64,000 nt of DNA from positions 62,001 through 126,000 of the forward strand of contig NZ_FZNV01000004.1 in the NCBI RefSeq assembly GCF_900188415.1. Reading direction: 5' to 3'. Position 1 is the stretch's first letter; each line of letters opens with the position of its first letter. Source of the DNA: Maribacter sedimenticola. GTDB lineage: Bacteria; Bacteroidota; Bacteroidia; Flavobacteriales; Flavobacteriaceae. The translations under genes and the position numbers were made by a program. Below are positions 55,266 through 61,758 of this stretch, piece by piece. The notes beneath the pieces are model-generated. The model was not told the origin of the DNA and did no database searches. It saw only the letters and a list, made by a program, of their open reading frames with translations.

Positions 55266-55303
55266 AAAAAACCTGTATCAAATTTATCTGATACAGGTTT
55301 TTT
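55266..55303. terminator. Terminator between the pxp and ilv operons
   Basis: AAAAAACCTGTATCA (55266-55280) pairs with TGATACAGGTTTTTT (55289-55303) around an 8-base loop. Genes on both sides run on the minus strand, so it most likely ends the pxp transcript about 207 bases after pxpC. Confidence 0.85.
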
Positions 55304-55509: not shown

Positions 55510-56349
55510 TTACACCAGTTTAAAATTTATGGGATTACCCACCCTTTTCTGTGCTAAAATACAGATGGCCTTATCCGTTAATTGCAATACCCTAGGATAG
55601 CCCCCAGTGGTTTGTCCATCCTTCATCAAGATAATCAACTTTCCTGCGGGAGTTAATTGTACCGTTCCAGGAAGTGTTGCGGAAGTGAGCATGGATAGGT
55701 TATGGGGAGTTATTGTTTCATGTACCTGATAGGCCATTCTGTTGTTTTCTTGTGCAACGGTAAATGTTTTTGAAAAAAGTTCCTCTAATTGCCTATCCGT
55801 TAAAAGGTCAAATTCCGGTCCTTTACAAACATGAAGGATGGTATCGTCCAGGAAGGAGGCTACTTTAAGCTCGGAAATTTTAGGTTGAAACAATTGTTGG
55901 TATTCATAGGCAACAACATCGCCATCCTTAAATCTATTGCTTTCTGTAATAGGTTTATAGTAAGATCGACTTCCCAATATTTTCTTAGCCGTAAAACCAC
56001 CCTTGACCCCTAGGTAACATCTAAAACCTTTGACCAATTTGCCAAATGAAACAATATCACCGGCTTCTATTTGATAAACCTTATAATTCTGTATGGGCAA
56101 GTTGTTCAATGTCGCTAACATTTTTGCTCCTCCCAGCACTATATACGTTTCTTCCTCAAATACCAACGTTGGACCCGTCATGGTAATTTCCAAGACTGCC
56201 GCAGTACGTTCGTTTTCCAATAAGGAATTTACCTTGAAAACGGACATTTCGTCCATAACTCCGGAAACGGGCACGCCTTTATTTCTATAAAAGAACCTAC
56301 CTTCATCTTGGACCGTAGTATAAAATCCCGCTTTTAAAACTTTAAGCAT
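55510..56349 (-). CDS. pxpC: 5-oxoprolinase subunit C (biotin-dependent carboxylase-like)
   Basis: The 279-residue protein has the KipA/PxpC pattern: YTTVQDEGRFFYRNKGVPVSG at the N-terminus (only part needed), SLLENERTAAVLEITMTGP and the C-terminal GGYPRVLQL. With PxpA and PxpB it forms the prokaryotic ATP-dependent 5-oxoprolinase that opens pyroglutamate to glutamate. It overlaps pxpB by 8 bases. Confidence 0.92.
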   Translation of the reverse strand: MLKVLKAGFYTTVQDEGRFFYRNKGVPVSGVMDEMSVFKVNSLLENERTAAVLEITMTGPTLVFEEETYIVLGGAKMLATLNNLPIQNYKVYQIEAGDIVSFGKLVKGFRCYLGVKGGFTAKKILGSRSYYKPITESNRFKDGDVVAYEYQQLFQPKISELKVASFLDDTILHVCKGPEFDLLTDRQLEELFSKTFTVAQENNRMAYQVHETITPHNLSMLTSATLPGTVQLTPAGKLIILMKDGQTTGGYPRVLQLTDKAICILAQKRVGNPINFKLV

Positions 56350-57079
56350 TCAATTGTATTTTTTCCGGTTGATAAATTCCTACTTCGGCCTCAATCTTAT
56401 GAAGCTTATAGGCCGCTCTTGAAATTTCAAAAAATTCTATTTTATCACCTACATTGACAAAACACGGATTTTCCTTGGATGCATCAAAAATTGGGACGGG
56501 ACAATTTCCTATAATATTCCATCCTCCTGGAGATTCCTGGGGATATATCCCTGCCTGCTTACCTGCAATACCCACTGCACCTTTTTCTACTTTTGCCCTG
56601 GGTGACACTTTTCTGTTGACCTCTAACTTTTCATTTAGTCCTCCTAAATACATAAATCCGGGTAAAAACCCAATACCAAAAACGGTATATTGGGCACCGG
56701 TATGCATTGCTATAATATCTGCTATGGAGATATTCAATTTTGCACCTACTTCTTGTAGGTCCAAACCAAATTCTTGATCATAGCATACCGGCAAACGCCA
56801 AAGAAATTTGCTTGTTTTGTCCTTATGACCCAATTGAGTATAATAATTTTCCAATTCCAAGGTCAACTTGTTATGATCAATTTCATGCTTTCTATTGACC
56901 AACATCAATGAATTATAGGACGGTACCATTTCCCAATCAGGATCGGCAAAACCATTAGATTGCAATATGACCTGATATTGTAATATAATTTCTAGGATTT
57001 GTTCATTGACGGTATGTGGCCATTCTATTAAAATAGCATGTACACCAAACGGTTTAATTTTGATTTTAGGGGAATTCAC
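56342..57079 (-). CDS. pxpB: 5-oxoprolinase subunit B (KipI-like)
   Basis: The 245-residue protein has the cyclophilin-like carboxyltransferase domain with FGIGFLPGFMYLGGL and GIAGKQAGIYPQESPGGWN. In Bacillus the homologue KipI was first known as a kinase inhibitor, but in the present operon 5-oxoproline cleavage is the natural role. It overlaps pxpA by 4 bases, so the subunits are translationally coupled. Confidence 0.92.
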   Translation of the reverse strand: MNSPKIKIKPFGVHAILIEWPHTVNEQILEIILQYQVILQSNGFADPDWEMVPSYNSLMLVNRKHEIDHNKLTLELENYYTQLGHKDKTSKFLWRLPVCYDQEFGLDLQEVGAKLNISIADIIAMHTGAQYTVFGIGFLPGFMYLGGLNEKLEVNRKVSPRAKVEKGAVGIAGKQAGIYPQESPGGWNIIGNCPVPIFDASKENPCFVNVGDKIEFFEISRAAYKLHKIEAEVGIYQPEKIQLNA

Positions 57080-57816
57080 GGTTTGAGTTGTAAATTAAAT
57101 TCTGGTAATTTAGATGTAATATACGTTAAAATATCAGACGCGGCTGGGGTATCTCCATGAAAACAATAGGTATCCGCATGAATGGGGACATTCATGTTTT
57201 CTATAGTTTTTACATGATTTTCTTTTACCATTAATAGTAAATGTTCCCATACATCCTTAGCATTGGTAATTAAGGCATTCTCTTCCTTTCTTGACACCAA
57301 ACTTAAATCTGTATGATAATTTCTATCCGCAAAGGCTTCCCGTTTAATGTTCCAATGAGCGGAAATGGCCAATTCCGCTATTAAACTGCCATAAGGAACA
57401 TATAAATACGTATTCTCCCTATATGGTTCAACAGCGTTCAAGAATACCAATGCCAAATTCCTGTTATTGGCAATATCATTATATAATGCACCATGAGGTT
57501 TAATATGATGCAATGGCATATCTAGCTTATTACAGATGTTCGTAAATACATTTAATTGCTCCCTAATTTGGCGTATTAAGTTGGTATGTGATATCGTCAT
57601 GGATACCCTGCCAAAATTTTCCCTATCCGGATATGAAGGATGGGCACCAATAGCTACCTCATGAATTTTTGCCAATTCTAAACAAATTGCTATACTTTCC
57701 GCAGAACCTGCGTGACCACCACATGCTATATTACATGAACTGATCAAGGGAAACAATTTTTCCTCATTGCCTACCCCTTCTCCAACATCACAATTTATAT
57801 CTATGCTTTTCCCCAT
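57076..57816 (-). CDS. pxpA: 5-oxoprolinase subunit A (LamB/YcsF family)
   Basis: The 246-residue protein starts with the family hallmark IDINCDVGEG and continues with SSCNIACGGHAG, GAHPSYPDRENFGR and HIKPHGALYN, an Asp/His-rich site that fits a metal-dependent hydrolytic step. It begins three bases after the stop of the Nramp-like gene upstream. Confidence 0.93.
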   Translation of the reverse strand: MGKSIDINCDVGEGVGNEEKLFPLISSCNIACGGHAGSAESIAICLELAKIHEVAIGAHPSYPDRENFGRVSMTISHTNLIRQIREQLNVFTNICNKLDMPLHHIKPHGALYNDIANNRNLALVFLNAVEPYRENTYLYVPYGSLIAELAISAHWNIKREAFADRNYHTDLSLVSRKEENALITNAKDVWEHLLLMVKENHVKTIENMNVPIHADTYCFHGDTPAASDILTYITSKLPEFNLQLKP

Positions 57817-57819
57817 GTA

Positions 57820-59013
57820 TTACAACAGACCTATAACGCTTAATATACTTTTAACCCCTAAAATTATGGACAATATGATGATAAAGATTCCAATACAATT
57901 TTGTACCAGATTATTTTTATAGCTACCCATTACCCCAGCCCTATTGACAACCCAAAGTAAGAAAACTGCTATTATAGGCAACAACAATCCATTGGTTATT
58001 TGGGCAAACTTAATTACCTGTATGGGTTTAATTCCAAACGACAAAAAGAATACACCAAGAATTAAGATGATCATCCAAACCAATCTAAATCTGGTGTCGT
58101 TTAATTTCGCCTTCCATCCAAAGCAACTATTTGCAACATATGCTGCCGCCAATGGCGCTGTGATTGCAGATGTAATTCCGGCCGCAAATAGACCAATACC
58201 CATAAAATAAAGTGCCGCAGAACCGTACAACGGTTCCAAGGCCTTGGCCATATCCATAACACTGTTGACTTCTGTAGTGGTTATGGCAGTAGCAGAAATC
58301 ATGATACTAATGGACACCAAGCCACCAAGAAAAATAGAAATCAGCGTATCTCGCTTGGCAAGATTCAAATCGCTTTTCAACTTCCACTTTTCACTTACCA
58401 ATGCAGCATGTAAAAAAAGGTTATAGGGTACTACGGTTGTTCCTACCAGTGCTATGATAGTGAGAATTCCCTTTTCCGGAATTGATGGTATAAACAAACC
58501 TTTTAACAATTGTGCAATATTGGGACCTGTGAGTAGCGCAGTTGCCAAGAAAGACAAACTCATGATCAATACCAAGAAGATAAATACCTTTTCCAAGGTC
58601 TTATAACTCCCAAAATACAATAGAATAAAAGCGAGGCCACCTAAAATATAAGGATACCAATTACTGTATGACATACCAAACAGTGCTTGCATACCTAACG
58701 TAGCACCACCGATATTTCCTGCTTCATATGAGGCATTGCCAATAATAATTGCGCATAGAATTAAACCTATGACACTATTACGAACCCAAGTCGTATGCAG
58801 TTCTTGCTTAATAACATCTGCCAAACCTTTTTGGGTAACAATACCCAGCCTGGCCGACATTTCCTGTAAGACATAAGTTGCAAATATGGATAACACCATG
58901 GCCCACAACAAACTAAATCCAAAGTCTACACCCGCCAAGGTACATGCGGTAACGGTACCGGGACCAATGAAAGCGGCCGCAACAAGAACACCAGGTCCTA
59001 ATTTCTTAAACAT
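57820..59013 (-). CDS. Nramp-fold transporter without canonical metal ligands (YcsG-like)
   Basis: The 397-residue protein has about eleven membrane helices and the Nramp plan, but the metal site is changed. Helix 1 reads GPGT (residues 17-20) instead of DPGN, and helix 6 reads VVPYN (194-198) instead of VMPHN, so the Asp, Asn, Met and His of divalent-metal Nramps are all absent. In B. subtilis the homologue ycsG also neighbours ycsF (pxpA) and the kip genes. Being first gene of the pxp operon, it may import 5-oxoproline or another organic molecule; this is inference. Existing names that call such proteins divalent-metal transporters should be doubted here. Confidence 0.85.
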   Translation of the reverse strand: MFKKLGPGVLVAAAFIGPGTVTACTLAGVDFGFSLLWAMVLSIFATYVLQEMSARLGIVTQKGLADVIKQELHTTWVRNSVIGLILCAIIIGNASYEAGNIGGATLGMQALFGMSYSNWYPYILGGLAFILLYFGSYKTLEKVFIFLVLIMSLSFLATALLTGPNIAQLLKGLFIPSIPEKGILTIIALVGTTVVPYNLFLHAALVSEKWKLKSDLNLAKRDTLISIFLGGLVSISIMISATAITTTEVNSVMDMAKALEPLYGSAALYFMGIGLFAAGITSAITAPLAAAYVANSCFGWKAKLNDTRFRLVWMIILILGVFFLSFGIKPIQVIKFAQITNGLLLPIIAVFLLWVVNRAGVMGSYKNNLVQNCIGIFIIILSIILGVKSILSVIGLL

Positions 59014-60339: not shown

Positions 60340-61758
60340 TTAATTTATTACAAACGAATCAGAGAGGTTTATTTTATTTATAAGTTTATCTATTGATTCG
60401 TGATTATATTTAAATTTTTGAAAGAATGCTTGAACACTTAAAATTATGTTTTTATTTAAACTTTGGTATTTATTTAGACTAACATTTAACTTTGGTTCGC
60501 CTGTATCTTCCATGTAAGATAATATTCCCAGTGTATCCTTGTTTGTTTTTAAGAAATTATCATACAAACACAACATATTCGACATTAGATAGGATTGATA
60601 TCTATTACCACTTCTAGAACTGCCTAATGGTATTATTTCCTCAATTTTAACTACTAATTGCTGTAGTGATAGAGAACCTCTTGATAGATTTTGATAAAAC
60701 ACTATGTGGTTTATTTTACAATGAATTAAAAACAGCAAGCTAACAGGAAATATATTCTCATGTTGTTCAAATGTATTTAGTACAATAGCTGTATGACCAT
60801 AGATTTTTTCTATTTGCCTTAATATTACATGATTATTTGAAAAAATTATTTTTGAAATGGCTTTAAAAGTATCTTCCTCCCCTTTAAAATCATTATTATT
60901 CTTACGAACAGGTAGGTTGAAAAAATGACTAAATCCGAAATATTTAAATAAATAATCACAGAATGCATTTTTATCAGGTTCAGGAATTGAATATTCTACA
61001 TCTATGAATCTTCTTAAATATTCTTCAGAATTTATACTTTCGCTACCATAAAAACCTTTAACAGCATTTTCCAACTGTTCTTTATCAATTGATAATACAA
61101 ACACAATACCCTTTACACTGAACAAATGTTTTATTTGTTCCAAAACTTCAACTGAATAATTAGGTCTACATCTATCCAATTCATCAATTATAAATATGAC
61201 AGGCTTATTAGAATCAATAGTAGCTACATATTGTTCTAGAATATTTCTAAATTCTGTTATGCCTTTTTTTTTGTTATTATATTCTTTTAAACTATCCTCA
61301 AGCTCTTTTACAGAATATTTACCAATACCATTTAACAAATCGGCTGTAGATTCTCCTAACCTTTTTTCTACAGTATGTTTAATTATTTCTGGAACGGCTT
61401 GCTTTATAAGTGGAAGTGCCTTTGAAAGTACAGTTTTAAATAACTCTTCTCCTTTTCCTACTATTTCCTTTAATTCTGCTAAAAGTGCGATTATAACATC
61501 TTCTTGAAAATCATTTTCCCAAGCATTAAAATATAGAGTAGTGAAATTTTCGTTCATCAATTGTTGTTGCCACATTTTGACAAATGTAGTCTTACCACTT
61601 CCCCATCGATTGTTAATAGCTAAAACAAAACCATCATTATAAGTACCAACTATTGAAGTTAGTATTTTTGCATATTTATCTCGACCAAGCTTACAATTAA
61701 GAAATGGTTTAGAATCTTTTCCCTGCGGGATATAAAGCTCTTCATGTCTAATTACCAT
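60340..61758 (-). CDS. KAP-family P-loop NTPase
   Basis: The 472-residue protein has Walker A NRWGSGKTTFV (GSGKTT at 53-58), the KAP helper region YFNAWENDFQED (about 77-88), Walker B VIFIIDELDRCRP (about 187-199) and the sensor-like stretch FVLSIDKEQLENAVKGFYG and YLRRFIDVEY. Some KAP NTPases carry membrane helices between Walker A and B; this one does not, so it is probably soluble. KAP proteins include PifA, which excludes phage T7 from F-plasmid cells, and eukaryotic membrane-scaffold proteins. The gene stands in a more AT-rich, loosely packed region with no housekeeping neighbours, which suggests acquisition by transfer. Anti-phage function is only a possibility. Confidence 0.85.
   Translation of the reverse strand: MVIRHEELYIPQGKDSKPFLNCKLGRDKYAKILTSIVGTYNDGFVLAINNRWGSGKTTFVKMWQQQLMNENFTTLYFNAWENDFQEDVIIALLAELKEIVGKGEELFKTVLSKALPLIKQAVPEIIKHTVEKRLGESTADLLNGIGKYSVKELEDSLKEYNNKKKGITEFRNILEQYVATIDSNKPVIFIIDELDRCRPNYSVEVLEQIKHLFSVKGIVFVLSIDKEQLENAVKGFYGSESINSEEYLRRFIDVEYSIPEPDKNAFCDYLFKYFGFSHFFNLPVRKNNNDFKGEEDTFKAISKIIFSNNHVILRQIEKIYGHTAIVLNTFEQHENIFPVSLLFLIHCKINHIVFYQNLSRGSLSLQQLVVKIEEIIPLGSSRSGNRYQSYLMSNMLCLYDNFLKTNKDTLGILSYMEDTGEPKLNVSLNKYQSLNKNIILSVQAFFQKFKYNHESIDKLINKINLSDSFVIN

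Follow-up and report, generated by a model that had tools for sequence, protein, structure and literature searches.

What does a protein of the Nramp metal-transporter family carry when its gene stands at the head of a 5-oxoprolinase operon? The question is raised by a locus of Maribacter sedimenticola (contig NZ_FZNV01000004.1, positions 62,001 to 126,000; this whole stretch of 64,000 nucleotides is called the window here), in which an open reading frame (ORF) running from 59013 to 57820 on the minus strand (397 amino acids, ATG to stop) matches the Nramp profile PF01566 in a Pfam search (308.8 bits, cut-off 29.8). The NCBI model NF037982, which the window protein also matches (104.3 bits, cut-off 50), would label it "Nramp family divalent metal transporter," a name also given to many homologous genes.

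As read from the ORFs, the carrier gene heads a tight four-gene operon with pxpA, pxpB, and pxpC, whose Pfam family names are, in operon order, Nramp, LamB_YcsF, CT_C_D, and CT_A_B (Table 1). The preliminary description had placed the carrier three bases from pxpA and in the lead of pxpABC, and this is borne out by the ORF coordinates and the Pfam identities: a gap of 3 bases (57817-57819) separates it from the pxpA start at 57816, and the overlaps are 4 bases between pxpA and pxpB and 8 bases between pxpB and pxpC. Past pxpC, judging by its sequence, the inverted repeat is likely a terminator. The next large gene upstream of the operon, past two small hypothetical genes, encodes a KAP-family P-loop NTPase (PF07693, 140 bits; window 60340-61758, minus strand).

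Table 1. Features of the carrier gene and its operon, in window positions
Feature	Position	Strand	Evidence
Nramp-related carrier, PF01566 "orphan/G-motif" type, first operon gene	57820..59013	-	ORF, Pfam, AF2 model
TM1 unwound segment G17-P18-G19-T20, where metal Nramps have DPGN	58954..58965	-	MntH alignment, clade tally
TM3 Y96-E97-x-x-N100; canonical E134 = N100, D131 = E97	58714..58728	-	Alignment, tally
TM6 unwound segment T192-T-V-V195-P196-Y197-N198, where metal Nramps have A-x-x-M-P-H	58420..58440	-	Alignment, tally
Q338 = DraNramp Q378, single accessory metal ligand kept	58000..58002	-	phmmer alignment to chain 8e5s, tally
pxpA, 5-oxoprolinase subunit A (LamB/YcsF)	57076..57816	-	PF03746, 255.6 bits
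pxpB, 5-oxoprolinase subunit B, GTG start	56342..57079	-	PF02682, 222 bits; TIGR00370 over cut-off
pxpC, 5-oxoprolinase subunit C	55510..56349	-	PF02626, 225 bits
Perfect inverted repeat AACCTGTATCA/TGATACAGGTT, A-run on one side, T-run on the other	55270..55299	.	Sequence reading

The AF2 model of the window protein (46 sequences; mean pLDDT 87, pTM 0.88) is of the LeuT type with TM1 and TM6 broken, and with the profile score above the curated cut-off it places the protein in PF01566 and the LeuT fold. Its best PDB fold match is EleNRMT (7qia; TM 0.91), followed by DraNramp (TM 0.87 to 0.89), with APC amino-acid carriers and Mhp1, a hydantoin carrier, among the lower-scoring matches. The comparison of the predicted fold shows that the fold of the metal family is retained, and no more; we deduce no substrate from it.

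In DraNramp, Mn2+ is bound by the side chains of D56, N59, and M230 and the backbone carbonyls of A53 and A227, as well as by Q378 in the occluded state; metal transport is abolished by D56A/N and severely reduced by N59A (PMC6398981). In equivalent alignment columns, the window protein has FIGPGTVT in TM1 where E. coli MntH has YIDPGNFA, and VGTTVVPYNLFLHA in TM6 where MntH has LGATIMPHVIYLHS, with G17, T20, V195, and Y197 replacing the canonical Slc11/Nramp ligands of DPGN and MPH. Among the 144 members of the window clade gathered in this analysis (DraNramp numbering), D56 is replaced by G and N59 by T or S in 143 members each (one gap in each case), and A227 to T, M230 to V, H232 to Y, and E134 to N are found in all 144. 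The canonical proton path (E134, H232, D131) is likewise absent, its positions being occupied by N100, Y197, and E97, of which E97 is the sole acid kept and is Q in some clade members. The preliminary description had all metal-binding residues missing; the changes from DPGN to GPGT and from MPH to VPY and the loss of D, N, and M stand across the 144 homologues, but "all" was slightly overstated, since the equivalent of the accessory ligand Q378 (Q338) is kept in 144 of 144.

These residues bear on the reading that the protein is a divalent-metal importer (Mn2+ or Mg2+) with noncanonical ligands, supplying a cofactor to the oxoprolinase. Such a role would be in line with the proposal of B. subtilis YcsG as the Mn2+ importer MntG, where overexpression raises cell Mn and a triple mutant was unobtainable (PMC10448178), with the report of A. 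baumannii MumT as a Mn importer that raises cellular Mn (PMC5050338), with the movement of Mg2+ and Mn2+ by EleNRMT, the nearest solved fold, without the full canonical motif, and with the retained Q378 equivalent. However, NRMT-type proteins keep the TM1 aspartate (5 of 5), whereas the window clade has G there and never D, the D56, N59, and M230 positions are without any metal-binding side chain, and no metal-responsive RNA, riboswitch, or other Rfam element was found near the operon at the gathering threshold (55 to 60 kb). As the gene linkage described below moreover tracks the ring substrate and not a single enzyme fold, we consider metal import very unlikely. It would also be conceivable that 5-oxoproline crosses the membrane chelated to a divalent metal, much as citrate does in CitM-type metal-citrate carriers; the Mn and 5-oxoproline phenotypes, both published for the YcsG group, would then no longer conflict, and Q338 is kept. 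Yet Q338 is the sole metal side-chain ligand left, and 5-oxoproline is a weak chelator, which makes carriage as a chelate scarcely credible.

With respect to gene linkage, pxpA adjoins the carrier on the same strand in 77 of the best 80 relatives in named genomes, all of Flavobacteriaceae type. The spacing is mostly a gap of 0 to 1 base or an overlap of 1 to 4 bases, and in one of the three relatives without an adjacent pxpA (L076), pxpABC lies about 4 kb downstream. Adjacency at this frequency indicates that the linkage between carrier and pxp genes is not due to chance. The genome-contig scan gave Flavobacteriaceae-type relatives only, and the breadth described here comes from a phylum-wide whole-genome search and from plasmids; viral-contig scans for either pxp-linked clade returned zero relatives. 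Across this wider set, we observe that the window clade partners three kinds of 5-oxoproline-type ring-opening enzyme in many bacteria and some archaea. Besides PxpABC, a single-chain OPLAH-type oxoprolinase of about 1,270 amino acids, with Hydantoinase_A and Hydantoinase_B domains, adjoins the carrier in several Bacteroidota (L129, L131, L132, L171/G282), and split HyuA/HyuB adjoin it in others (L138-L141). At haloarchaeal loci, where the clade members are 45 to 47% identical to the window protein, the carrier is directly followed by HyuA and HyuB (L035, L036, L165, L180-L183), and an Asp/Glu-racemase-family gene is often present as well. Oxoprolinase-type neighbors are absent at haloarchaeal L166 and at proteobacterial L162 and L163. 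The split HyuA/HyuB pairs find their best NCBIfam matches in caprolactamase subunits, with scores well short of the cut-off.

The cargo could therefore be some other cyclic amide or amino acid, such as hydantoin, a 2-pyrrolidone-type lactam, or a proline-like compound, with 5-oxoproline not the main substrate, given that hydantoins and caprolactam are also substrates of HyuA/HyuB-type enzymes, that the racemase-family gene adjoining in several haloarchaea fits hydantoin too, and that the carrier family may hold subclades with different partners (the VTYN carriers, which are not oxoprolinase adjacent). However, the partner in those 77 close relatives is PxpABC, an enzyme dedicated to 5-oxoproline, and the compound common to PxpABC and OPLAH is 5-oxoproline, so that we regard another main substrate as unlikely; hydantoin-like substrates are nevertheless possible for the window clade.

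In one subclade (L124, L125, L127, L130), whose TM6 has the motif TYN or AYN, the carrier gene follows two genes, which in L124 encode the alpha and beta subunits of a 2-oxoacid:ferredoxin oxidoreductase and in the other three loci are of matching size and in the same layout. An oxoprolinase is not adjacent to the VTYN subclade carriers, yet one is present in every such genome.

Co-occurrence was scored in 296 Bacteroidota genomes, the same set being used for the carrier, PxpA, and Hydantoinase_B searches. The carrier clade is present in 63 of these genomes, which span 12 family codes, and all 63 encode PxpA (41) or Hydantoinase_B (22), compared with 38 of the 233 genomes without the carrier. 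When only PxpA-less genomes are considered, Hydantoinase_B is found in 22 of 22 with the carrier versus 22 of 217 without it, and only 1 of the 296 genomes has both enzymes. The corresponding Fisher P values (about 1e-38 for either enzyme and about 1e-19 for PxpA-less genomes) overstate the certainty because the genomes are related. The exchange of partners can also be seen within a single genus code (g70), where G282 and G089 have carriers that are 75% identical and share a divergent upstream gene (65%), whereas downstream of the carrier the two differ, with pxpABC in G089 and, in G282, a single-chain oxoprolinase (OPLAH) in convergent orientation; G282 gave zero PxpA matches. A substrate importer would be expected to show this pattern, in which the carrier stays while an unrelated enzyme catalyzing the same reaction takes the place of the original one.

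Because the metal ligands are lost and the carrier is linked to three kinds of ring-opening enzyme, import of 5-oxoproline is the most likely function, and we conclude that what the window carrier takes up is probably 5-oxoproline or a closely similar cyclic amide, and not metal. The preliminary description had proposed a 5-oxoproline importer or another organic-substrate carrier on the Nramp fold, and this proposal gains support from the loss of D, N, and M, the pxp linkage, the unrelated oxoprolinase partners, the complete co-occurrence, the within-genus enzyme swap, and the distant PxpT literature, from which we infer the substrate; in the literature searched, we found no transport measurement for the window clade. 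The protein would be a secondary carrier with the LeuT fold, from the Nramp-related part of PF01566 that lacks the metal ligands, and would bring 5-oxo-L-proline (pyroglutamate), or a five-membered cyclic amide much like it, through the inner membrane, after which the cotranscribed PxpABC would open the ring with ATP to yield glutamate. In APC amino-acid carriers, a GSG-type TM1 break forms the organic-substrate pocket, and in the window protein a pocket may be formed by the glycine-rich TM1 break (GPGT), the TM6 break (TTVVPYN), and Y96/N100, with H+ or Na+ as the putative coupling ion. If 5-oxoproline is indeed moved, a large set of metal-transporter annotations would be wrong, several kinds of 5-oxoprolinase would gain a clear uptake partner, and a basal, uncharacterized branch of the Nramp family would gain a testable substrate.

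Other PF01566 genes depart from the metal-transporter pattern as well. The three PF01566 proteins above cut-off in genome G000 all lack DPGN/MPH, and a canonical Nramp manganese importer therefore seems to be absent there. A second Nramp-related gene of this genome (G000:C10:417962-419233, L196:8963-10234), with IGTGSVT in TM1 and a TM6 without the M or H ligand, sits between two alginate-lyase (PF08787) genes, and of the 15 related loci examined, 7 have one or more PF08787 lyase genes no more than about 3 kb away; this second carrier may move alginate-derived uronate and not metal.

Compared with canonical Nramp/MntH proteins (DraNramp, EcoMntH, BfraNramp), the window protein has the same overall fold (TM 0.86 to 0.89) but is only 22 to 29% identical and is without DPGN and MPH. 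EleNRMT is its best PDB match by sequence and fold, at an identity of about 28%, but NRMT-type proteins keep the TM1 Asp and have DNDAGG in TM1 and TIAPW in TM6 where the window clade has GPGT and VPYN; the window protein thus lacks the NRMT motif, and the NRMT-type sequences L145, L146, and L148-L150 form a clade of their own in the tree (100/100).

The systems closest in gene context are PxpT of C. glutamicum, YcsG (MntG) of B. subtilis, and PxpG of C. difficile, all of them PF01566 carriers encoded within pxpABC operons. YcsG and PxpT have been implicated in 5-oxoproline carriage by genetics. Growth of C. glutamicum on 5-oxoproline depends on pxpT, and the gene complements in trans, although the authors leave metal transport possible (PMC13274462). 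In a preprint of 2026, MntG is assigned to "G-motif 3," and the Nramp-related groups other than the NRMT-like one are described as "entirely uncharacterized" (PMC12873925). In the structure alignment, the YcsG model 9a52_A is 21% identical to the window model, which together with the "G-motif 3" label led us to drop YcsG and PxpT as orthologs of the window protein; the preliminary description was right about the linkage in B. subtilis ycsG/ycsF, but YcsG does not seem to be an ortholog. Going by 9a52_A and MumT-like proteins, identity to the tested relatives is about 21 to 26% (a MumT-like query gave no match among PDB sequences), so that results on YcsG and PxpT transfer to the window protein by remote homology only.

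MumT of A. baumannii has likewise lost D, N, and M, and its operon holds a PxpA homologue and PxpB/C-like domains, but it is 25% identical to the window protein, and its operon adds a PF07286 D-glutamate cyclase and a biotin carboxylase. In the mum operon (L158:5707-11908), it is MumU that matches PF07286, and MumH carries fused PxpC- and PxpB-type domains. This combination of a PxpA homologue, a PF07286 protein, fused PxpB/C domains, and a biotin carboxylase suggests that the mum operon is an oxoproline-type pathway too, and given the ligand-less MumT and the MumU and MumH domains, its reading as "urea metabolism and Mn import" is worth reconsidering. MumT-like carriers with PxpA are common on plasmids (L159, Klebsiella; L160, Levilactobacillus; L178, Deinococcus), often with a PF07286-type gene and a biotin carboxylase, and 93 Klebsiella plasmid records have such carrier loci. 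MumT-like and window-clade proteins group together in the careful tree (93/86), a grouping that is not firmly supported, and the MumT branch is very long. We dropped an independent origin of the two groups on account of this joining, and an oxoprolinase-linked function may have come down to both from a common ancestor. Given the long branches of the tree, its counts of partner types are used qualitatively only.

The "orphan" outgroup of Slc11 in PF01566 is marked, in the list given by Cellier, by substitutions to Y and N in h3 and to T, V, and Y in h6 (PMC10606218), and it is described as lacking what Mn and proton transport require (PMC9606685). The window protein has all of these residues (Y96, N100, T192, V195, Y197), as do nearly all members of its clade, and the literature read gives the outgroup no substrate; the data therefore suggest 5-oxoproline or a close cyclic amide as the substrate of this Nramp-related group that roots the metal-transporter family. 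It might even be, although we put this forward tentatively and with some doubt, that the orphan root group as a whole consists of 5-oxoproline carriers, in bacteria and haloarchaea, with the metal site a later invention and the Mn effects of MntG and MumT indirect. Unrelated types of ring-opening enzyme would then be interchangeable partners, and the Nramp metal site would have arisen inside an organic-solute lineage. The window clade offers a clean route through the contradictory reports on YcsG/MntG, PxpT, and MumT, and it differs from the orphan outgroup as described so far in that here the gene context suggests a substrate.
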